Positions 3,627 to 60,803 of a stretch of 64,000 bases of DNA are shown here, piece after piece (within the stretch, counting starts at the first letter, position 1; each line of letters opens with the position of its first letter). The notes under the pieces were generated by a model. That model did no database searches. It saw only the letters and a program-made list of their open reading frames with translations, and was not told where the DNA came from. Both the position numbers and the translations under genes were made by a program. The DNA comes from Nitrospira defluvii (GTDB lineage: Bacteria; Nitrospirota; Nitrospiria; Nitrospirales; Nitrospiraceae): contig WYAX01000024.1 of NCBI GenBank assembly GCA_011525625.1, positions 1-64,000 of the forward strand. Direction: 5' to 3'.

Positions 3627-5485
3627 GGCAGTTCCTCCAGCACGCCTCGACGCATCGCGGCAATGGCTTTCTCGGCCGACTCCGCCAGCGAAGGATGGGT
3701 GCTTTTCAACGTCTTGAGTTGGGATAAGAACTCGATAGTCCTCGCGAACAATCGGAACATGTCGCCTTCCGCCATGGTGGTCAATCGAGCGAGCCCGATC
3801 CACGTGAGCGCCTGATCCGCCACCCACCGTTCGGTCAGTGCCGCCACGTCGGCGCGGAGCATCGGCGGAGTTTCATGCGGGGCGAGGCTTTCCGCCAGTT
3901 TGCGGACCTGGAAGAGGAGCGTGACCAGTCCCGCGCTGCCACGCGGAAAGGAGCCGGGGCGATCGTCGTCATGAGCGATGCTTGCCATCACGGCTGCCAG
4001 CAAGGGAGGATCGATGGCGCCGAAGGCTTCTGCGCGAATCAGCTCCGTGATGAGCAGCGAGTGATCGATGCGGATCAGTCGCGCCCATTCACCGTCGGCG
4101 GTGAGTTGAGCCTGGGCGTTCAGGTAACCGAATCGCTCCAGGACATCGATTCGTTCTTGAAAGCGGTGCCACAGGCTCGTTTGGAGCGCTTGAATCGACT
4201 TCATGTGCCGCTGGATCTCCTGGCGCACCCGCGAGGCGCGGGGGAAATCGCGCTGGCACGCCTGCCGCGAGGGGCAGGTGGGGCAGGCGAAATCGCCCAG
4301 TGTTTGCACGATGGAGCTGTCGAGCGGGGCCTCTTCGTTCTGGTGTGTCAGGATCGGCAGGATGGGCAGCCTCGGCGGGAGATCGGCCAGGTGGTGCGTT
4401 AACTGGTCCAGCGACTGCGCCGTACACCATGGATAGGATGAGGCTTCCTCGCAATCGAACGTGCGATCGAAGACCTGCGTGACAATGGACGCGGGACACT
4501 CGTTCAGAGAACCACCCTCCCGTAGGAGCGTGACCATCGGTGCATGCTGGCCTTTGCTGCGATACTGGCGAAGAATGATGCCGCGTCCGCGCACCAGTCC
4601 CACCACTCGCCCCGGAGTGAGGAAGTGCATCCGGGCTGCGATCTCCGGTGATTCCTGTTTCGCGAAGGGGCTGCGGGGTTTTTTCCGTTTGCGCGCTTGC
4701 TCAAAGACCTGCCATTGCGTGATCCAGTCAGAGCAGACGCGCGGACCGAACGGCTCCATTTCCGCCCGCAGGCCGTCGAGTTTGGTTTCGAGCACCGCCG
4801 TGCGCTGATTCAACTGAAATTGGGCGAAGCTCTTGGCCAGGATGGATTGAATCTGTTCGCGCGGGTGCGCCTTGAGCAGGTTCAACACCATCGGGTACGT
4901 GATCACAAACTGACTGTGGATGGCCTCCGGCTGCCCGGTGAGGCCCTTGGTCAGGACCGTCAGGTCGATGTAGGGAGACGGTGTGATGACCGCGAATCCG
5001 ACGAGGTCCTTGCCGCGGCGGCCGGCGCGGCCGGCCAACTGCTGGATTTCGCTTGCCGTCAGGTCGGTAAAATCGCGCGCCTTGCGGATGCTGGATTGCG
5101 TCACGACGACGGTGCGGGCGGGAAAGTCCACACCGGCGGCCAGCGTGGTCGTTGCAAAGACGGCGTCGAGGGAGCCGGTGCGCATCAACTCTTCCACGGC
5201 GATCTTCCACGACGGCAGGTGCCCGGCATGGTGCGCGGCCACGCCGATGCGTTGGACCGTCTCGATCAGGGGATGTTCCGCAATGCTGGGATATTGTTCG
5301 ATGACCTGAGCCAGGACGCGGGCGATCTGCTCCTGTTGCGTCTTCGGCAGGGTGACTTGACTGCGCTCGAACGATTGCATCGCTTCGTCGCAGGCCCGTC
5401 TCGAGGTGAGAAAGATGATCGCAGGGGTAAGGTGTCGTTGGCGGAGAGTCGCGACCAGATCAACCGGATGGATCGACGGCGGCAT
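3623..5485 (-). CDS. Ski2-like superfamily 2 helicase, RecA2 and C-terminal half (separate gene)
   Basis: This 620-residue protein begins directly with the second RecA domain: AIIFLTSRRACDEA (about 22-35), AAHHAGHLP (83-91), motif V ATTTLAAGVDFPA (111-123) and motif VI QLAGRAGRRG (149-158). A long alpha-helical and winged-helix-like C-terminal part contains a cysteine cluster (CPTCPSRQAC). There is no Walker A or B. It starts inside the end of glgC (26-bp overlap, AAGGGA upstream of the ATG) and is coupled by GTGA to the downstream RecA1 gene. The genes therefore stand in the opposite order to the domains of a normal helicase. An RNA-processing or turnover role is inferred from family membership. 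Confidence 0.85.
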   Translation of the reverse strand: MPPSIHPVDLVATLRQRHLTPAIIFLTSRRACDEAMQSFERSQVTLPKTQQEQIARVLAQVIEQYPSIAEHPLIETVQRIGVAAHHAGHLPSWKIAVEELMRTGSLDAVFATTTLAAGVDFPARTVVVTQSSIRKARDFTDLTASEIQQLAGRAGRRGKDLVGFAVITPSPYIDLTVLTKGLTGQPEAIHSQFVITYPMVLNLLKAHPREQIQSILAKSFAQFQLNQRTAVLETKLDGLRAEMEPFGPRVCSDWITQWQVFEQARKRKKPRSPFAKQESPEIAARMHFLTPGRVVGLVRGRGIILRQYRSKGQHAPMVTLLREGGSLNECPASIVTQVFDRTFDCEEASSYPWCTAQSLDQLTHHLADLPPRLPILPILTHQNEEAPLDSSIVQTLGDFACPTCPSRQACQRDFPRASRVRQEIQRHMKSIQALQTSLWHRFQERIDVLERFGYLNAQAQLTADGEWARLIRIDHSLLITELIRAEAFGAIDPPLLAAVMASIAHDDDRPGSFPRGSAGLVTLLFQVRKLAESLAPHETPPMLRADVAALTERWVADQALTWIGLARLTTMAEGDMFRLFARTIEFLSQLKTLKSTHPSLAESAEKAIAAMRRGVLEELP

Positions 5486-6698
5486 GCAGTTTCATTCCCT
5501 TTGAAATGACCACCAATCCGGAATCGGTGACTTTGAAACGTTGACGATCCGCGGCCGGGTCGAAGCCGATCACGGTGTTTGGCGGAATGATGACATCCTT
5601 GTCGATAATGGCGCGGCGGATACGGGCATGTTCGCCGATCACCACGTTTTCCATCACCACCGATTCCCGCACATCTGCATGGTCATGGACCCGGACATGC
5701 GGCGACAATACCGAGTTCTGGACACGTCCGCCGGAAATGATGCAGCCGCCGCAGACGATGGAGTCCAACGCCACTCCCATGCGGCCGCCCTGAAAGTCCT
5801 GGGCGAACACGAACTTGGCGGGTGGAAACTGCCCCTGGTAGGTGCGGATCGGCCAATGCTCATCGTAGAGATTGAATTGCGGATCGACGGAGACCAAATC
5901 CATATTGGCCTCCCAATAGGCGTCGAGCGTGCCGATGTCCCGCCAGTATTTCACCGCCTTCTTGTTTTCGTCCTGAAATTTGAAGGCGTAGACGCGGCAT
6001 TCTTTGATCATCCGGGGGATGATGTTCTTGCCGAAATCATGCTTCGTGCCTTCTTTGGCATCTCTGATCAATTGTTCGCGCACGACCTCCGTGCGGAATA
6101 AGTAGATGCCCATGGAGACGAACGCCTGACTCGGGTCCCCGGGAATGTGCATCGGGCGTTCGGGTTTTTCGTCGAAGCTCAAAATTCGCCGGTCTTCATC
6201 CACTGCGATCACGCCGAAGCGGTTCGCTTCCGCCAGCGGGGTTTCGATCGCACCGACGACGGCATCGGCCTGCTTCTCAATCAGCAGGTTGTACATGTCG
6301 GCATAGTTCATCTTGTAGATGTGATCGCCGGCCAGCACCAGGAGGAACTCGGGATGGTCGTTGTCGAGGAGGAACAGATTTTGATAGACCGCGTCCGCCG
6401 TGCCGCGATACCACTCTTCGCTGATGCGCTGCTGGGGAGGCACCGAGACGATGTATTCGCCCAGCTCGGGGTTGAGAATGTTCCAACCCGTGCGGATATG
6501 GCGATCGAGGGAGTGCGATTTGTACTGAATCAACACGGCCATCTGCCGCAGGCCGGAGTTCAGGCAATTGCTGAGTGTGAAATCGATGATGCGATATTTT
6601 CCGCCGAAGGGGACTGCGGGTTTTGCGCGTTGGTCCGTGAGAGGTTGGAGGCGTTCACCCTTTCCTCCTGCCAGGACCATGGTGAAGATGTTCGCCAT
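5460..6698 (-). CDS. glgC: Glucose-1-phosphate adenylyltransferase
   Basis: GlgC makes ADP-glucose from ATP and glucose-1-phosphate, the committed step of bacterial glycogen synthesis. The 412-residue length is normal. It has the nucleotidyltransferase signature LAGGKGERLQPLT near the N-terminus, AKPAVPFGGKYRIIDF, the WYRGTADAVYQN motif, VLAGDHIYKMNY and FDEKPERP. The C-terminal left-handed beta-helix contains GGCIISGGRV. It is the first gene of the minus-strand operon with the split helicase, overlapping the next gene by 26 bp. No glycogen synthase or branching enzyme lies in the window. Confidence 0.97.
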   Translation of the reverse strand: MANIFTMVLAGGKGERLQPLTDQRAKPAVPFGGKYRIIDFTLSNCLNSGLRQMAVLIQYKSHSLDRHIRTGWNILNPELGEYIVSVPPQQRISEEWYRGTADAVYQNLFLLDNDHPEFLLVLAGDHIYKMNYADMYNLLIEKQADAVVGAIETPLAEANRFGVIAVDEDRRILSFDEKPERPMHIPGDPSQAFVSMGIYLFRTEVVREQLIRDAKEGTKHDFGKNIIPRMIKECRVYAFKFQDENKKAVKYWRDIGTLDAYWEANMDLVSVDPQFNLYDEHWPIRTYQGQFPPAKFVFAQDFQGGRMGVALDSIVCGGCIISGGRVQNSVLSPHVRVHDHADVRESVVMENVVIGEHARIRRAIIDKDVIIPPNTVIGFDPAADRQRFKVTDSGLVVISKGMKLHAAVDPSG

Positions 6699-51258: not shown

Positions 51259-52465
<1,207 letters not shown>

Positions 52466-52491
<26 letters not shown>

Positions 52492-53131
52492 GGTGGCTCT
52501 CCTTTCGTTCCCCGCTCTTATTGGACTCGCGCCACTTTCTCGCTGCGACTCGGTTTTGGCAGCGCGGCTGACAGTATAGCTGTTCGCGTCGGATCGCAAA
52601 AAAGATCGTGGCGCATTCCGGACAGCGTCGGATGTAGTCCCCCGTGTGGGCCAGGAGGTGCACAAACCGGTATTCAAACTCCTTCGCCTTGCGTTTCGCG
52701 CTCACGATGACCGTCCCGGCCTCGTCAGAGCCCTCGCCCGGCGACACCACGACCAGCGTCATCTGCGGAAACGTGAACTCGGTGTAGCCTTCATGCCAAT
52801 AGAGCTCCAAGTGCTCCAGGACGGCAGCCTGAATGTCCAGGGCTTCTTTGCGACTGGGAATCGTCTGATAGTTCTTCGCGTTGGGCACTCCTTCTACGCT
52901 CCATCCACTTTCAGGCGCCACCATCCCGCCGTAGCGGTCTCCGGTCTCATCGACAAAGGCCGCGACCTCAAACGCTACCAGCGTCCATTCCGTGGGCGTC
53001 AAAGCCTCCAGATCGGTCTGTAAAAACCGGAGCACCCACCCCACGGCGCCATCCGGCATCGTCTGGATCCGCTCCATCGCCTTCTCATACTCCACTTGAA
53101 AGTCCTGCTCCGCCTGTCCCTGTGCGCTCAT
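52466..53131 (-). CDS. CGNR-zinc-finger-like protein
   Basis: A protein of about 221 residues whose C-terminus has CPECATIFFAIRREQLYCQPRCQNRVAARKW, the spacing of the CGNR zinc finger of putative transcription regulators (here CQNR). A basic tail (ESHRGKKSGKG) follows. It overlaps the integrase start by 26 nt, so it is expressed with it and may control excision. The start near 53131 has GGAG about 8 nt upstream. Confidence 0.7.
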
Positions 53132-53333
53132 GCCTTCGGCTCCTTTTTCACGCCGACCCCTCTCTAGATTGCTAATCCCAACACCACCGAAAAATGTGTC
53201 GTGCGAACGGGCCGTTTCCACCGGAATGTGTTTGGCAAGTGTACCTCCGCCTTGCTAATGGCTGTCAAGAGTCATCACGCCTAAAAAATATGAGACGTGA
53301 TCTCTTCACAATCATTTTTCAAGGAGGTGCCCG

Positions 53334-53543
53334 ATGGTCCCCAGTACAAAATTGATCACTATTCGAGAGGCGGCCAACCGGTTAGGGCTCAAAGAAAGCA
53401 CAATCAGAAAATACATCCTGAAACGGCAGATCGCCTATGTGAAGCCGTCGGTCCGCGCCGTACGGATTCCGATTGAGGAACTGGAACGGATTCTCGCTGC
53501 CGGCCTGAGGCCAGTGATTCCTCAGGCGGCGGCTGCCCGATGA
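53334..53543 (+). CDS. Excisionase/AlpA-like helix-turn-helix protein
   Basis: A 69-residue protein with a MerR/AlpA-type HTH (LITIREAANRLGLKESTIRKYI) followed by the wing RQIAYVKPSVRAVRIPIEEL. A strong GGAGGTG site precedes the ATG. Size and position next to integrase and Rep-like genes fit an excisionase or element regulator. It overlaps the next gene by 4 nt. Confidence 0.8.
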   Translation: MVPSTKLITIREAANRLGLKESTIRKYILKRQIAYVKPSVRAVRIPIEELERILAAGLRPVIPQAAAAR

Positions 53544-54253
53544 GCCGCTGGAAGGAGTTCCGGCGGGAGCCAGTCGCCGGGGAATGGACTAGGAAGCAGA
53601 AGCGGGGGTATCACCGGGTGCGGTCCCTGCTGTGGTTCTGGGAATGCCACCAGTTCCAAGTGCTGTGGGTGACACTTTCCACGGCAGAAGGCGGGGATGC
53701 GGAGAAGTTGACCTATCACCACAAGCAACTGCGCCAACGGATCGAACGCCAGCTCGGGTTTCAGGGCTTGGAGTATTACCAGGTCCGGACGGAAGAAGGT
53801 CATGGCGTGCTCCATATCTTCTGGGCCTGGCGGGTGCCGGACGGGGAACGTTCGCGGCGTTTCTGGATCTCGCAGGAATGGCTCTCGGCGCAGTGGCAGG
53901 CCCTCCACGGGGCTCCAGTCGTCTGGATCAAGGCCTATCAGCCCAGCCATCGTTCCCGGAATCGTCTGAGCCGCTATGTGATCAGCCAATATGTTCAGGA
54001 TCAATGCGGCTACGTGAATATGTGTTGGTCCTGGAAACGGTCCCTCGGCTTCCCCATCAGTCGACTGTGGGAAGAGATGCGGAATCAATGGGTGAGCCGG
54101 AACGTCTATCGCCGGATCAGAGGCGAGATTGAAATCCCAAAGATCGTCTTCCTCAAGACCTGGGAGGATCTGCTCTCGGGGCATCCAATTTGGTTCAGTG
54201 GCACCATTCTGCAGCTCGTATTGGGGAAGGGGCTCGTCTATCAGGAGGTCTAG
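53540..54253 (+). CDS. Rep-like protein (possible rolling-circle initiator)
   Basis: A 237-residue protein whose layout resembles HUH-type replication initiators of small plasmids and filamentous phages: VLWVTLSTAE (motif I-like), YHHKQLRQRIERQLG, EYYQVRTEEGHGVLHIFWAW (at the HUH position, but the second His is not conserved), VVWIKAYQPSH, then NRLSRYVISQYVQDQ with Tyr at the catalytic spacing and a Trp-Ser-Arg-like ending. The missing HUH His makes activity uncertain. It is coupled to the HTH gene. Confidence 0.45.
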   Translation: MSRWKEFRREPVAGEWTRKQKRGYHRVRSLLWFWECHQFQVLWVTLSTAEGGDAEKLTYHHKQLRQRIERQLGFQGLEYYQVRTEEGHGVLHIFWAWRVPDGERSRRFWISQEWLSAQWQALHGAPVVWIKAYQPSHRSRNRLSRYVISQYVQDQCGYVNMCWSWKRSLGFPISRLWEEMRNQWVSRNVYRRIRGEIEIPKIVFLKTWEDLLSGHPIWFSGTILQLVLGKGLVYQEV

Positions 54254-54255
54254 GC

Positions 54256-54498
54256 ATGATCTGGCATCGGTGTAGCCTCAAACTGCCAAGCCTCTTTGGC
54301 CCTACTTATTGCGGACGGGAAGCGACCACCTATGACCGGGCGAGAAAAGCTTGGCTGTGTCCTGAACATACGAAGGAACGGCTGTGTGAATTCTGCCAAT
54401 TCGAACGGGCGTGGGTACGGTTTTGTTATCCGGAGAAGGAGGTGACGTGCGAAATCTGGCTCTGTGTGGACTGTGCGGGACTGACGGGGCGACGGTGA
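54256..54498 (+). CDS. Small Cys-rich protein of the island core
   Basis: An 80-residue protein with AGGAGG 7 nt before the ATG. Cysteines pair as CPEH, CEFC and CVDC, suggesting one or two zinc sites. It is the last gene of the HTH-Rep operon. The family is unrecognised. Confidence 0.6.
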   Translation: MIWHRCSLKLPSLFGPTYCGREATTYDRARKAWLCPEHTKERLCEFCQFERAWVRFCYPEKEVTCEIWLCVDCAGLTGRR

Positions 54499-54705
54499 CA
54501 CGTTCTAATCAATATCTCCCTGTCACCCGTCCATTATCCGTCACGGGTGAGAGGGAACAATGCTCCTTCATTGTAAGGCGGCGATGCGGTAGCTTGGCCG
54601 CCATTCTGGTGGATCGTGGATTACAGAGGCCAGGGAAACACAACAGGATACTGAAACCATGGGGAGATTGGTTACGCGAAGATTCCGCCCAACGAGGCCG
54701 CCCGG

Positions 54706-54760
54706 CCGTTCCGGACCACTGGACCGGACGGCCGGGGGGATCGGGGGCGCAGCCCCCGCT
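54706..54760. other. Paired GC-rich hairpins downstream of the Rep-like operon
   Basis: The 370-bp gap 54499-54868 has no gene. Near 54706-54733 CCGTTCCGGACC can pair with GGACCGGACGG, and 54744-54760 is a perfect CGGGGGC-GCA-GCCCCCG hairpin. This may be a terminator or, given the Rep-like gene, a replication or nicking site. Confidence 0.4.
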
Positions 54761-54868
54761 TCACTTGATCTATATGGTCAAAGTAGGACAAAGACGGCCA
54801 ATACTTCAAGCACGTCATGGTATAAGACACTTAAATGATCGTAACGACGGTTTACAGATAGGATCGAC

Positions 54869-55747
54869 ATGAAGATACTCATGTTAATCGTGACTGTTTT
54901 CATTGTTGCCTCGGCCTATGCCGAAGATATCCCCGAAAATGCCCACAAGAACATGCGTAGTAATGGCTGGGACTGTAATAAAGGGTACCACCGATCTGGT
55001 GATGGCTGTGTCCGTGTGATCATTCCAGAAAATGCCCATCTCAACCTTTACGGGAATGGCTGGGACTGTAATAAAGGGTACCACCGGTCTGGTGATGGCT
55101 GTGCCCATGTGATCATTCCAGAAAATGCCCATCTCAACCTTTACGGGAATGGCTGGGACTGTAATAAGGGGTACCACCGGTCTGGTGATGGCTGTGTCCG
55201 TGTGATCATTCCAGAAAATGCCCATCTCAACCTTTACGGGAATGGTTGGGATTGTGACAGAGGCTTCGCGCGTTCGGAAGCAAGGTGTACCATCGTCCAA
55301 ATCCCCCGGAATGGAGAGTTAGATTTCACAGGCCATTCGTGGAGGTGCTTGCGGGGATATGAGCGCGACGGGAATGTGTGCCGCCCATTCACAATTCCCG
55401 AGAATGCGGTAATGCGGCTAGATGGTAATGGGTGGATATGTAATCTCAGGTTCAAGCGTTCAGGCAATGAGTGCGTAGCTATGACAGAGCAAGAGATAGC
55501 ATTTCAGAATTTATTAATAATGCGGGCGAGGGCATGCGGCAAAAGTTACAACTACGATGTGTCGGGTTACTGTGGCGGCGAGTACGTATACGGAAACGTC
55601 GATGCCTGCTCACAGAGTAAGGAGGTTACAGGCCACGTAACTTTTGATAATGGCGCGGAAATGGACTTTACGGGTGAATGGATAAGCAAAGGTGAAATTG
55701 AAGGAACGGATGGGTTTGGGAACTCCTGCGATCTTGAGGTTGATTAA
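54869..55747 (+). CDS. Secreted tandem-repeat Cys protein
   Basis: A 292-residue protein with signal peptide (MKILMLIVTVFIVASAYA). About six repeats of roughly 29 residues follow, with consensus IPENAHLNLYGNGWDC, then GYHRSGDGC, each with two conserved Cys. Repeats 1-4 are nearly identical and the later ones diverged. A unique C-terminal domain (residues about 205-292) has further Cys. The module occurs in exported bacterial proteins of unknown role; a disulfide-linked extracellular protein is inferred. The gene is lower in GC than the host. Confidence 0.8.
   Translation: MKILMLIVTVFIVASAYAEDIPENAHKNMRSNGWDCNKGYHRSGDGCVRVIIPENAHLNLYGNGWDCNKGYHRSGDGCAHVIIPENAHLNLYGNGWDCNKGYHRSGDGCVRVIIPENAHLNLYGNGWDCDRGFARSEARCTIVQIPRNGELDFTGHSWRCLRGYERDGNVCRPFTIPENAVMRLDGNGWICNLRFKRSGNECVAMTEQEIAFQNLLIMRARACGKSYNYDVSGYCGGEYVYGNVDACSQSKEVTGHVTFDNGAEMDFTGEWISKGEIEGTDGFGNSCDLEVD
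54934..55245 (+). repeat. Tandem coding repeats of about 87 bp
   Basis: Three to four nearly identical 87-bp units encode the IPENAHLNLYGNGWDC modules. Near-identity at synonymous positions shows recent duplication or gene conversion. Confidence 0.85.
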
Positions 55748-55802
55748 GCTCTAAACCTTGAATGCTGAATAGCTATAAGATGTAGTCCCAGGTCTAGAAA
55801 AG

Positions 55803-56814
55803 ATGGCTAAAATAACCCGCGCTCTTCGTTTCATGAGGAAAGCTGAGGCGGCATTGCTTTCCTCGATCGAAGTTTATAATCGACCTACGTTTGCCTACCG
55901 CGAAGAAACATTTGCAATCTTGGCGTTAAACGCGTGGGAACTCCTCCTGAAGGCTAAGCTCCTTGAACAGCACAAGAACAATGCACATTGCCTATACACT
56001 TTGGAGCCAAAGAATATTAAAGGTGGCAAGCAATCCAAAAAACTTTACATAAAAAGAAATCGGTCAGGTGCTGCCCTAACCCACAGTTTATGGAAAACTA
56101 TTTCTGAGTTGGAAGACAAAACCGCAGTAAGGGTTGACGCTGCCATTAAGGCAAATCTTGAGGCGCTAACGGCAATCCGTGACAATGCTGTTCATTTCGT
56201 AATAGCCAGTCCACAGCTTGGAAAGCAAGTACTTGAGATAGGTAGCGCGGCAGTACGAAATTTTGTCGAACTTTCTCGTCAATGGTTTCAGCATGATCTT
56301 TCCGGACGGCATTTCTTTTTAATGCCAATCGGGTTTGTCGATGCGCCGCATTCTGCCATGGCAATAGAACTCTCTCGTGACGAATCTCGGCTTATCTCGT
56401 ACCTCGCACAACTCTCACGGAATACCGCCCAAGGGCCGGCTAGTCCGTTTAACGTAAATCTTGAAGTGAACCTATCATTTAAGAAGAGCAAATCGGCCAC
56501 GGCGCTTGCATTATCGATTACGAATGACCCCAGCGCTCCGCCTGTCTCCATAACCGACGAGGATTTTAGAAAAATTTATAAATGGACCTATCAGCAGTTG
56601 ATGGATCAGCTTAAAAAAACGGTATTCAGACTTCAAAGTTAACGACAAGTTTACCGGCATTAGAAAGCCGCTTATGGTCGATCCAAAATTCGTAAAGGCT
56701 AGGTATCTCGATCCCGAAAATCTAAAAAGCGGGAAAAAAGATTTTTATAATCCAATAATCCTCGGTGAGTTCGACAAGCATTACACGAGGAAGGCAAGCT
56801 CTTCGATCATCTAA
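55803..56814 (+). pseudogene. DUF3644-family gene interrupted by a frameshift at an A7 run
   Basis: The first frame (55803-56642, 279 residues) matches DUF3644 (FAYREETFAILALNAWELLLKAKLL; ALTAIRDNAVHF) and stops at KKTVFRLQS. From the AAAAAAA run at 56613-56619 the other frame continues the family C-terminus: RYSDFKVNDKFTGI, VDPKFVKARYLDPENL, KSGKKDFYNPIILGEFDKHY, ending at TAA 56812-56814. Removing one A restores a protein of about 336 residues. It is either a mutation, a sequence error, or a slippage-regulated gene. DUF3644 proteins are often found in defence or mobile regions. Confidence 0.8.
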
Positions 56815-56978
56815 ATTTTCTCCTCGTCCCGATTTTGCTCCTGAGTGGAATTTTCGTCTGTGACGAAGAGGGTGTTGTTATTGTTATGATCGAAAACGCT
56901 TGGTGGAAGCGGGATTGATGGATGGAGAATACCTAGAGATATGCCATTATTTCACGGTTGTGGTTGATCTGGAGGTTG

Positions 56979-57971
56979 CTAAAAGTCGACAGCTGGAAGT
57001 TGCCCAAATAGATTCTCAGGTGTTTTCTCCTCGGATAGTGTAACTAAAGACGGATCAGCTATGTGGGAAATATGGTCTTTCTTGTATTCAAACAAGACCA
57101 AGTTTTCTCCGTAGTGATGTGGGCTACGAAATAAAATGCCCATGTACCCTTCGTGCTTTAAACAATCCGATATGAACCGCGGGACGAAATATTCCGGTTT
57201 CCAGCCAGCTGCTCTTTCTACTGGTCGAGCGAGTACATTTGTGTACGCGAGCCCGAATAGCAGTTCGGAGATGTCATCGGTATCCAGGAAATCTTTGCAT
57301 AGTAGAGCTATATTGGATAGATCCTTGAGCTCAAACTCTTGAACCCAAGTCAGTCCTCCAGATTTGCCGAGAATTTCACGAGCCGCATTTTCTTTCGTAT
57401 CTGAAAGATAGAAAACTTGCTGACCAAAGTGATTGTAACGGCCTTCCGGAATAGCGACGATCTTGGGATCTGGTGGATAAAGATCACTAGTTGACAGCAG
57501 TCGACTGTCTTCAACTTTTCTGGCTCGATACCACCTTCGGCTTGGCAGTTGTTCTTTTGAGAGAGTTTTAATTTCTTTGACTATTTCAGTTCCCAGGGGA
57601 TGAAGCAACCCGAGGTAAGGATACGATTCGAGATGCTTCGCAAACTCCTCGAATCTTGGTGAATAGGTGTCATACCAGCTGTTCCATAATCGCTCTTCGT
57701 TAAGCTCATCTTCTGTCGGCATGCCTACATCGCAAGTAATATCAAGCTCTGCTCCGCAAGTACTGCATGTCAAACCTCTTGCGACTTGGTCCTGAAATCG
57801 CTCTGGGATATTTAGTTCACCCAGGAAATCAGGCATTGAATACTGAACCCCTCTGACCCAGATGCATTCGCCTGCTTCAAAGGGTTGGCATGTTACACAG
57901 TACTTTTGATTAGACTGTGCAATTTCGATGTAATCTTCTAAAGTTTTTTTCTTCCTGGGCCTTTTCGACAT
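56979..57971 (-). CDS. RES-domain protein with N-terminal Cys-rich region
   Basis: A 330-residue protein. The N-terminal part (about 24-90) has Cys pairs (CVTC, CSTC) suggesting zinc. The C-terminal RES domain has the hallmark Arg (RWYRARKVED, about 145-154), Glu within GRYNHFGQQVFYLSDTKENAAREI, and Ser in GILFRSPHHYGENLVLF. RES toxins degrade NAD+ and kill or arrest cells. Here the partner is not an Xre antitoxin but the HEPN-like protein encoded upstream on the same strand (49-bp gap). Confidence 0.82.
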   Translation of the reverse strand: MSKRPRKKKTLEDYIEIAQSNQKYCVTCQPFEAGECIWVRGVQYSMPDFLGELNIPERFQDQVARGLTCSTCGAELDITCDVGMPTEDELNEERLWNSWYDTYSPRFEEFAKHLESYPYLGLLHPLGTEIVKEIKTLSKEQLPSRRWYRARKVEDSRLLSTSDLYPPDPKIVAIPEGRYNHFGQQVFYLSDTKENAAREILGKSGGLTWVQEFELKDLSNIALLCKDFLDTDDISELLFGLAYTNVLARPVERAAGWKPEYFVPRFISDCLKHEGYMGILFRSPHHYGENLVLFEYKKDHISHIADPSLVTLSEEKTPENLFGQLPAVDF

Positions 57972-58020
57972 TTTTCGGCCTTATTCGACGCTGCTAGATG
58001 GATCTGTGATGATTGGTCCT

Positions 58021-58572
58021 CTAGTCATCTTCATACATCCATTTTGCGTCATCTGGTACTTCCCAATGCGGCATCTTTGCCTGTTTGCGCACTGTTGGAA
58101 GTATTCGATTAATCTCTGCGATAAGCGCCCCCACATCGAATACGTCGCCCCAAAATCCGAGAGTGCGTGATTCATGGTCGTACTGCCGAAACAGTCCAAG
58201 GTATCCTTTGGGGCCAGGTTTTCCATAACACATATCCGCAAAATTATGGCCGAGACTTTTGTTCCACCATCGGTCTAGCCGTTCGTCGAAATGCTCATAG
58301 TGATTACGCATCGTGACATCTTTTAACGGTGATTCTTCTGTTACGCTTAGACTGTCTCGGAGCGGTTTTCTTGCTTGAGTGTGCTTCCCCCGAATTCCCC
58401 ACAAAGCCTTGGAGATGTTTGCCGCAGCAGTGAGTAGGTTTTGTACGCCACAAAAAAGAATGGTGTTATCTCGTTTTCTGAAGCCATCCTCTATTTGCTG
58501 TTCGGCCTGAATAGCAAATAGACACTGAAGTAAAACCTGACGCTGGAATACACGCATTAGGTACAATTGCAT
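58021..58572 (-). CDS. HEPN-like protein paired with the RES gene
   Basis: A 183-residue helical protein with MRNHYEHFDERLDRWW, which contains the R-x4-H signature of HEPN ribonucleases or HEPN fold proteins, and an upstream helix (FCGVQNLLTAAANISKALWG). The adjacent RES gene and island location suggest a toxin-antitoxin or abortive-infection pair. Whether it is the effector or the neutralising partner cannot be told. ATG 58572 is the likely start. Confidence 0.6.
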   Translation of the reverse strand: MQLYLMRVFQRQVLLQCLFAIQAEQQIEDGFRKRDNTILFCGVQNLLTAAANISKALWGIRGKHTQARKPLRDSLSVTEESPLKDVTMRNHYEHFDERLDRWWNKSLGHNFADMCYGKPGPKGYLGLFRQYDHESRTLGFWGDVFDVGALIAEINRILPTVRKQAKMPHWEVPDDAKWMYEDD

Positions 58573-58780
58573 CACAGATTCTCATTGATTCGTGTTTTGC
58601 ATAGTCATCGAAAGCAGATATCGAAGGCGCACCGAGAGTTAACGGACGGCTTGGGAATGGAGACATGAGCGGGACTTAATGGGCAATTTCATCAGACTCT
58701 TTTCCGCGTTGACTGAAAGCGGAGTTGGTCAATTGAGATGACATGTGAGGCGAAGTTTATTGCCTAGCACTGTTTCATCT

Positions 58781-59089
58781 TTATTCGGGAAATTCCCAAA
58801 AAGCACGGTGTGGATCGTCGGACTCGGATGCTGGTTTCCTAATGGAGCATCGATAGTCGTCTCGCTGCGCCTTAGTGTGGTTAGGAGACACCCATACTGG
58901 CTTTCCCCAATCAGGAGTTCGCCTGCCTCCATAAACGTCATGCGTTCGTATAGTTTCGATCCATGTTTCTATTCGGTCAGATGGTGGTACGTCTGAAGAC
59001 GGATCAATCGGGGCGTTTATTGTAGATTCTCCACTTACCCACCCTCGCGGGGTGAGGTGCCACACTGTGCGCTCGACTTCAGTTCCCAT
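58781..59089 (-). CDS. Hypothetical protein
   Basis: A 102-residue, Trp/Pro-rich soluble protein (ERTVWHLTPRGWVSGEST; VWVSPNHTKAQRDDYRCS). It has no recognised family. It lies 25 bp downstream of the HigA-like antitoxin on the same strand and may be co-transcribed with it. The 58573-58780 stretch before the HEPN gene has no gene. Confidence 0.55.
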   Translation of the reverse strand: MGTEVERTVWHLTPRGWVSGESTINAPIDPSSDVPPSDRIETWIETIRTHDVYGGRRTPDWGKPVWVSPNHTKAQRDDYRCSIRKPASESDDPHRAFWEFPE

Positions 59090-59114
59090 TCTTTACTTTG
59101 CTACCTTAGATTAC

Positions 59115-59414
59115 TCATCTGCAGCAGGTTACCCGGCATTCAGTTGGACTTAACTCCAATTTTCCCTTGAGAGCTTCAAGGATACGGATCAGAGTTCCGA
59201 AGGCAGGCATGTACGCGCCACTCTCCAGGCGGGCAATCTGAGGTTGTTTCATGCCGGTCATACGGGCGAGTTGCGATTGACTCAGCCCTCGTTGTTCGCG
59301 AAGCTTGGCCAATTCCACAGCAATCGTTACTTCTCGTTCAGCCTCGGCGAGATCCTGTGCAAATGCTGGTTTTTTCTCAATGCGTTCGGTGATGTACTGT
59401 CGATGGGTTTTCAT
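59115..59414 (-). CDS. higA: HigA-like antitoxin (Xre HTH)
   Basis: A 99-residue Xre-family DNA-binding protein: ELAKLREQRGLSQSQLARMTGMKQPQIARLESGAYMPAFGTLIRILEALKG. It follows the toxin gene with an ATGA overlap, the toxin-first order of HigBA. It probably binds the palindrome in the promoter at 59769-59797. Confidence 0.9.
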   Translation of the reverse strand: MKTHRQYITERIEKKPAFAQDLAEAEREVTIAVELAKLREQRGLSQSQLARMTGMKQPQIARLESGAYMPAFGTLIRILEALKGKLELSPTECRVTCCR

Positions 59415-59761
59415 GGGTCATACCTCTTTAATACGTCGGCATATCGTTTTTCGGCCAATGCAATGTCTGATTCCTTTAGCCGTTGTGTTTTCTTTTGCAC
59501 GGCATGAAGGATCACAAACTGTTGCCCCACGATAGCTCCATAAAAGAACCGATACTCATTCCCTGACCATTCCGGCCGTAACTCCCAAATCTTTCCTCTG
59601 ACATGCTTGGCGATTGAAGTAGGAAGCTGTGTGCCATTGGTTTCGAGAAGGGTGATATAGGCCAAGCATTTCGCCCTCGCTTTGTCGGACTGTTTATCCA
59701 GGAAGGTTTCTATCGGACTGTCCCCATCTCCCGTTTCATAGTAAAGAACCGTCCAGGGCAT
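59411..59761 (-). CDS. higB: HigB/Gp49-like RelE-superfamily toxin
   Basis: A 116-residue toxin of the phage-derived Gp49 type (IWELRPEWSGNEYRFFYGAI; FVILHAVQKKTQRLKESDIALAEKRY). RelE-superfamily members cut mRNA at the ribosome. ATG 59761 is chosen because the strong promoter just upstream predicts a transcript starting at or within a nucleotide or two of this codon; earlier in-frame codons lie in the promoter. Confidence 0.88.
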   Translation of the reverse strand: MPWTVLYYETGDGDSPIETFLDKQSDKARAKCLAYITLLETNGTQLPTSIAKHVRGKIWELRPEWSGNEYRFFYGAIVGQQFVILHAVQKKTQRLKESDIALAEKRYADVLKRYDP

Positions 59762-59768
59762 AACGGGA

Positions 59769-59797
59769 AATATAACAGTTATGTTATCGTGCGTCAA
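59769..59797 (-). promoter_or_regulatory. higBA promoter with operator palindrome
   Basis: On the minus strand TTGACG (59792-59797), a 17-bp spacer and TATATT (59769-59774) form a near-consensus promoter. ATAAC-ATAACT-GTTAT is an inverted repeat spanning the spacer and -10. The expected start falls at the higB ATG. Confidence 0.7.
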
Positions 59798-59849
59798 ATG
59801 AATCCGTTGTGAAAAGCGTTGTGAAATGAGCGAGGAAAAGGGTCGATTT

Positions 59850-59875
59850 CACTCCCGGTTTTACTCCCGGTTCGC
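59850..59875 (+). promoter_or_regulatory. Putative integrase arm-type site (right)
   Basis: Identical over 26 bp to 51381-51406, in the same orientation, and followed by two degenerate GCTCCCRATT units. It lies about 140 bp inside attR. The remaining 59876-60013 has no gene. Confidence 0.6.
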
Positions 59876-60013
59876 TCCCAATTTTGCTCCCGATTGCCAG
59901 TCCAACCTAATCCTACTTAGTCCCACCTGCAAGGAAGATTTTCGCTTGGTTTAGCATTCGTTTAGGCGATACAATCAGAGTGAATCTTTATTAATATCAT
60001 TGGCTTCTGGTGG

Positions 60014-60076
60014 GCCTTCTAAGCTGAGGGTCGTTGGTTCGATTCCAACCGGGCGCACCACAAAATCGATAGGTTG
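60014..60076 (+). repeat. attR: partial tRNA-Arg duplicate
   Basis: Repeats the tRNA-Arg 3' half with four changes. Two of them (C to T and G to A in the T-arm) are compensatory, so the T-stem still pairs. It lacks the 5' half and cannot be a functional tRNA. Confidence 0.9.
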
Positions 60077-60218
60077 GGACGAAACGCCTTCCACAAATCC
60101 TCCCCCGCTCCCGGTGAGACTCCCACCTGGCTCTGTCGGCATGGCGTGAAGCAGACGTCTCGTGAGTGATTCCTTCCTTCTCGGGCTCCTATGCGAGATC
60201 GGTAGAGAAGGGTCGGGG

Positions 60219-60377
60219 CTAGGCAGCTTTCAGATCGTGGTCGCTGACCTTCTCTGTCTGAGCAGCGCAGAAGTCGCGCTCGGAATCGATCAGATGAGTG
60301 ACCAGGACCTTCAACACCGTCCAGATAATCGGAATGGCGAACAATATGGCGAACAGAATGAATTCAGCAGCGAACAT
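60219..60377 (-). CDS. Possible small single-membrane-helix protein
   Basis: A 52-residue frame from ATG 60377 encodes one membrane helix (FILFAILFAIPIIWTVLKVL) and a polar tail. It has no ribosome-binding site. The surrounding gap 60077-60803 shows no other coding signal. Confidence 0.3.
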   Translation of the reverse strand: MFAAEFILFAILFAIPIIWTVLKVLVTHLIDSERDFCAAQTEKVSDHDLKAA

Positions 60378-60803
60378 GCTTGAAGTGTAGCGCGTCCTGG
60401 GCGGGTGGCAAGCAGGAGCGAACGGCGAACCACTGCGAACAGTGCAGGCATCGGCGTGGCCATTGTCACCCCACGTCCCGGCTAAAATCTTCGCAAGGGC
60501 CGATGGTTTCTCCGTGCGAGCGTGAATGGACTGAACGTACGGAGGAGAGGTATTGGCGGTCAGGCTCCTGGAGGGCAGAGGGGAAGATGGTGGTGAAGGA
60601 TGTCGGAGCCCGATCAGGTTGCCCACAATTACTGAGAGTCATGAATCCCACGTACTCATAATCCACGAGACATTTTCTCCTTGTTCTACGCTATTTTGGT
60701 CGGTATCCTTCACCGTAAGCATCGCGCCTAGTCACACCCGTGCCCGCTGGGCCTTCGCAGCTGAGAGGGCACGGGGCGCATCACTTTCCACCCTGTGCCT
60801 GAC

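Follow-up and report, generated by a model that had tools for sequence, protein, structure and literature searches.

The RES-domain gene at 56979-57971 and the neighbouring gene for a HEPN-like protein at 58021-58575 were examined in a 64,000-nucleotide stretch of DNA (the window) from a Nitrospira-family bacterium. They probably encode independent effectors of abortive infection, carried together in one cargo of a small defence island that is integrated at a tRNA-Arg gene. For the RES protein the most likely role is that of an NAD+ (or NADP+) phosphorylase that needs no partner: its own Cys-rich and helical N-terminal region would sense infection or keep the enzyme off; infection would then lead to RES-driven loss of NAD+ and to growth arrest. 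The HEPN-like protein belongs to a stand-alone family and would, most likely, cut RNA as a metal-independent RNase with R90 and H95 as its catalytic residues.

A tRNA-integrated island with exchangeable cargo

The region 51259-60076 is a tRNA-integrated genomic island, with an integrase, att repeats and known empty sites. The integration target is a tRNA-Arg (TCT) gene (51259-51335, forward strand) with the left att repeat at 51289-51351, and the right att repeat (60014-60076, forward strand) is a copy of the tRNA-Arg 3' end, identical to the left one at 59 of 63 positions. Three relatives in the genus (L135, L137 and L138) have empty sites, where the end of tRNA-Arg (51335) is followed at once by the sequence of position 60771. 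In the window, ~700 bp (60080-60770) separate this conserved flank from the right att repeat; they end in a degenerate att-like 18-mer at 60748-60765 and are probably the remnant of an older insertion. The integration module spans 51336-54789 and the cargo 54790-59846, with a G+C content of 0.466 in the cargo versus 0.60 in the flanks. The island encodes a tyrosine integrase (51286-52677, reverse strand; Phage_integrase, 8.2e-31), whose true start probably lies inside the ORF, and a conserved 237-aa integration-module protein (53540-54253, forward strand) that recurs across genomes of the family.

The first cargo gene (54869-55747, forward strand) encodes a secreted-looking protein with Cys-rich 93-bp tandem repeats (IPENAHLNLYGNGWDCNKGY), which has a weak EGF_MSP1_1 match and belongs to no clear family. 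Next to it lies a gene for a DUF3644 protein (55803-56642, forward strand; Pfam DUF3644, 6.6e-45), which scores as the PADLOC candidate single-gene system PDC-S19 (4.8e-98); DUF3644 is listed among the HEPN families (PMC3710099). On the other side of the RES and HEPN-like genes are a small ORF of 102 aa (58781-59089, reverse strand), for which no Pfam match, plasmid match or relative was found, an Xre-like HTH (HigA-type) antitoxin gene (59115-59414, reverse strand; HTH_3, 5.4e-15) and a Gp49/HigB-like toxin gene (59411-59797, reverse strand; Pfam Gp49, 1.3e-22). The last two overlap by 4 bp. The RES and HEPN-like genes thus share the cargo with PDC-S19 and a HigBA-like pair.

The 237-aa module protein is present in 30 of 147 Nitrospira-family genomes, often more than once per genome and with many copies at 94-99% identity, and six copies occur in the genome of the window. 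Elsewhere the integration module is found at 88-91% DNA identity and is then followed by different cargo: a KAP/PifA-like NTPase, DUF4062 with Abi_alpha (PDC-S47), AAA_13 (PDC-S06) with a DUF6602/NucC-like protein, a 1344-aa ATPase, or an HNH protein. The neighbours in 20 further copies include SIR2-Argonaute (SIR2-pAgo), a type IIG restriction-methyltransferase, a type IV restriction enzyme, Upx, PDC-S46 and PARIS/OLD-like ATPases, whereas RES and HEPN-family genes are absent. Some of these neighbours may lie outside the element, since in part of the sampled copies no right end could be detected. These loci (L131-L142 and L194-L213) form an island family with a near-identical module, up to six copies per genome and cargo rich in anti-phage systems. 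The two genes thus lie in a slot where the cargo differs from copy to copy and where other copies of the island carry anti-phage systems, which gives the defence role first suggested for them a strongly supported setting.

The RES protein

The RES gene (56979-57971, reverse strand) is an intact frame of 330 aa and the only RES gene of the genome. Its product consists of a CxxC-bearing N-terminal region, a helical linker and a C-terminal RES domain (residues ~140-320), an ART-fold domain predicted to act as an NAD+ phosphorylase. Pfam RES (PF08808) matches the protein with E=6.5e-10 and 39.7 bits, against a cut-off of 23.2. Across an alignment of 18 RES sequences, R149, G177, R178, N180, G183, Y188, E199, S283 and N290 are invariant, among them the whole catalytic set (R149, R178, Y188, E199, S283 and N290), so the active-site check by alignment proposed in the preliminary description came out in favour of a RES enzyme. 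The invariant residues also fit R23, R82, Y93, S184 and N193, the residues named for NatT (PMC11535050).

A profile search of the PDB gave NatT and ParT as the only meaningful matches (E 0.02-0.08), the S/N segment aligning on NatT and the GRxNxxG...Y segment on ParT. The predicted model has a pLDDT of 66.8 overall and is good across the RES part, and the N-terminal 85 residues, which hold both CxxC pairs, are modelled with low confidence. Superposition gave Z 11.2 with MbcT (162 residues, rmsd 3.4), Z 10.0 with NatT (174 residues, rmsd 4.0), Z 7.8 with ParT and Z 7.0 with the Pseudomonas putida RES protein. The top rows of Foldseek and VIA are all RES toxins, and the five best are described as RES-type toxins. 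As modelled, then, the 330-aa protein has a RES (ART-like) fold. The Cys-rich N-terminal region that had been noted at the outset is present: the pairs C25/C28 and C69/C72, together with C36 and C80, all precede the RES domain, and the C69/C72 pair is common to the protein and its rhizobial relatives.

The HEPN-like protein

The neighbouring gene (58021-58575, reverse strand) encodes 184 aa, starting with GTG at 58575 or ATG at 58572, and the RNHYEH motif earlier read in this same-strand neighbour lies at residues 90-95. In a single protein the motif is weak evidence by itself, shuffles of the sequence containing R[NDH]xxxH in 6% and Rx4H in 38%. It is conservation among relatives, not the single occurrence, that marks the motif as real: none of the 38 aligned family members, which come from many phyla, departs from R90, N91, E94, H95, F96 or D97, a count that is biased because 46 genome contigs were found with the pattern RN[HAY][LIY]EHFD. 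Ten members were found by blast or profile independently of the pattern; eight have R-N, one has R-D and one (L002) has lost the motif, with VEKFEN instead. HEPN proteins have been defined by a conserved Rx4-6H motif with a polar residue after the R (PMC3710099), and RNxxEH has this form in all 38 sequences. On these sequence features a HEPN identity for the 184-aa protein is plausible.

The family might, on the other hand, not be an RNase at all: the motif may be structural, in a helical bundle that serves binding or regulation. The protein is modelled with a pLDDT of 89.5, as a bundle of helices that also has a small beta hairpin. In a PDB fold search with this model (Foldseek, VIA-align) no family stands out and no clear HEPN match appears; the scores of HepT chains, Z 5.5-5.8, are no better than those of unrelated helical bundles. 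The protein is called HEPN-like here because the fold search did not single out HEPN, although the missing fold match is no evidence against HEPN identity. Curated HEPN profiles gave nothing significant in the 38 members (best, HEPN_Apea at 0.09 in one member), which lowers the probability of membership but does not exclude it, as such profiles do not span the whole superfamily. Likewise, Pfam, NCBIfam, PADLOC and PHROG models gave no match of weight for the protein or the broad family, and solved HEPN chains no sequence match. Profile comparisons with an LA2681 HEPN protein, the DUF3644 protein of the window and one island cargo protein gave no match either, these being weak tests with single sequences on one side. 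Together with the loss of the motif in L002, the lack of HEPN profile and fold matches would suit a non-catalytic protein, but R, N, E, H, F and D are invariant over many phyla and the R is followed by a polar N as in active HEPN RNases (PMC3710099). Moreover, while the pattern-based selection biases the count, relatives found independently of it mostly keep the motif. A purely structural role is therefore rather unlikely, and an RNase is the preferred reading.

The family occurs in plasmids, Nitrospirota genomes, the 46 genome contigs of several phyla, viral contigs and phages, and single-protein scans found no close relative of the window protein. Members or probable members are annotated as hypothetical proteins in the Gordonia phages Samba, ZiggyZoo, Madeline and Ohgeesy and in Glutamicibacter phage BIM BV-113. 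In a Piscinibacter MAG, a family gene (4965-5543) lies in an integron array (L095, 3008-7400) with seven attC-like repeats (CCTAAC...GTTAGG). An integron cassette origin was rejected for the window gene, as no attC-like repeats were found near it.

The two genes as a pair

The RES gene does stand next to a gene for a HEPN-motif protein rather than an Xre antitoxin, as first described, and both proteins are real. The two genes are on the same strand and 49 bp apart, with the HEPN-like gene upstream of the RES start codon; a plausible ribosome-binding site precedes RES and a simple scan found no promoter-like site between the genes, so they may be co-transcribed. This arrangement is what would be expected if the two had evolved locally into a unit, with the HEPN-like protein as sensor of infection, as activator of RES or as an antitoxin-like protein that neutralises RES. 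The order of the genes is common for antitoxins, no other antitoxin adjoins RES, and operons of HEPN with an ADP-ribosyltransferase exist (pEK499_p136 family; PMC3710099). However, the distribution of the two families argues against such a unit. Profile searches for both families covered plasmids, phages, viral contigs, genome contigs and whole genomes, and of the 222 fetched loci none has both families except that of the window and duplicates of it. These loci come from finite collections and represent, apart from the window, ~58 separate sites of the HEPN family and ~45 of RES, mostly with flanks of 1.5-6 kb and, for many RES loci, a view of only +/-1.5 kb. RES genes of the window kind are present in 4 of 33 HEPN-family genomes, in none of them adjacent to the HEPN-family gene, and HEPN-family genes are found in settings as unrelated as prophages, plasmids and an integron array. 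Neither family thus needs the other elsewhere. A conserved RES-HEPN pair was accordingly rejected and a locally evolved unit is unlikely; as their families were together at no other place examined, the two genes look like independent weapons that came to be neighbours. The preliminary description had proposed a distinct two-gene module and had counted a pair conserved nowhere as evidence against it; as far as the searches reached, this is what was found.

A different partner for RES within the cargo, either the 102-aa ORF or the HTH protein, would make the HEPN-like protein a bystander. Both genes lie upstream of RES on the same strand, and RES toxins are usually paired with HTH proteins, but the HTH gene is coupled to the Gp49/HigB-like toxin gene that it overlaps, in the usual HigBA arrangement, and not to RES. 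The HTH protein also lacks an Xre_MbcA_ParS_C domain, and the HEPN-like gene sits between the HTH gene and RES, so an antitoxin elsewhere in the cargo is very unlikely. A RES-Xre toxin-antitoxin module was ruled out as well: there is no MbcA/ParS/Xre-type antitoxin (PF09722) near the RES gene, and the only PF09722 match of the genome is a short orphan frame on another contig (C21:139073-139216), far from it. Lastly, decay of the RES gene into a passenger without function would agree with the lack of close relatives in single-protein scans (best 26-34% identity over the aligned part), but is highly improbable given the intact 330-aa frame, the full catalytic set and the RES fold.

RES proteins with a Cys-rich N-terminus

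The missing Xre partner, presented at first as a peculiarity of this locus, is true of it but not special to it, since RES proteins with a Cys-rich N-terminus lack one elsewhere too. A Zn ribbon and a helical N-terminal domain on RES were described in the 2013 HEPN survey, in which one N-terminal domain type is fused to either HEPN or RES (PMC3710099). The window protein has no match to PF18870 (HEPN/RES-NTD1) at E<=1, and one RES relative (L040) matches it weakly, at 1.5e-5 and below the cut-off. RES relatives either stand alone or follow sce7726-sce7725. Eight RES genes with a Cys-rich N-terminus are located directly behind an sce7725-type gene (L011, L039, L040, L143, L144, L152, L154 and L155), the sce names being taken from the annotation of L011 and likeness in the other loci judged by eye. 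In the longer of these loci an sce7726-like gene comes first, giving the order sce7726 - sce7725 - RES, the last with a Zn-ribbon-like N-terminal region. As a candidate RES-based system, this conserved gene set is more promising than the pair in the window.

Novelty and significance

The RES domain itself, its combination with a Cys-rich N-terminus and the presence of HEPN proteins in defence loci were all known before. The new elements are a HEPN-like family that as yet has no name and a possible part in defence for a RES protein lacking an Xre partner. The NatT study states that bacterial immunity had not been linked to any RES toxin system (PMC11535050); the RES gene described here, lying where related islands carry recognised anti-phage systems, is a concrete and testable defence candidate. 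The HEPN-like family, found in many phyla and in phages, plasmids and an integron, has no model in the profile libraries searched. It is distinctly unlikely that the two proteins form a two-component immune unit, in which the HEPN-like one would detect infection or restrain RES; if real, the unit would be the first case of a RES NADase under HEPN-type control and among the first of a RES protein shown to take part in phage defence. The more interesting by-product may be the island family with its exchangeable cargo, as it offers a ready screen in which each copy gives a short list of likely defence genes.

Comparison with known systems

The RES protein resembles those of the RES-Xre modules (MbcTA, ParTS, NatRT and the RES-Xre pair of Pseudomonas putida) in catalytic domain, fold and catalytic residues, but differs in having a long Cys-rich N-terminal region and no Xre/MbcA/ParS-type partner gene. 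Its architecture of a Cys-rich N-terminus, a helical region and RES is like that of the RES proteins with HEPN/RES-NTD1 and an N-terminal Zn ribbon (PF18870; PMC3710099), although it does not match PF18870 and is not located behind sce7726-sce7725. The HEPN-like protein shares with HEPN RNases (HepT of MntA-HepT, Integron cassette HEPN and pEK499_p136-like HEPN) its small helical form and an Rx4H motif with N after the R, and with Integron cassette HEPN also the occurrence of one family member in an integron array; unlike the known enzymes, it has no sequence match to curated families or solved chains and no nucleotidyltransferase partner. The island itself is similar to other tRNA-targeted integrative islands with defence cargo in its tyrosine integrase, att repeats at a tRNA gene, empty sites and swapped cargo, but its family appears to be distinguished by an integration module of its own, present in up to six copies per Nitrospira-family genome.
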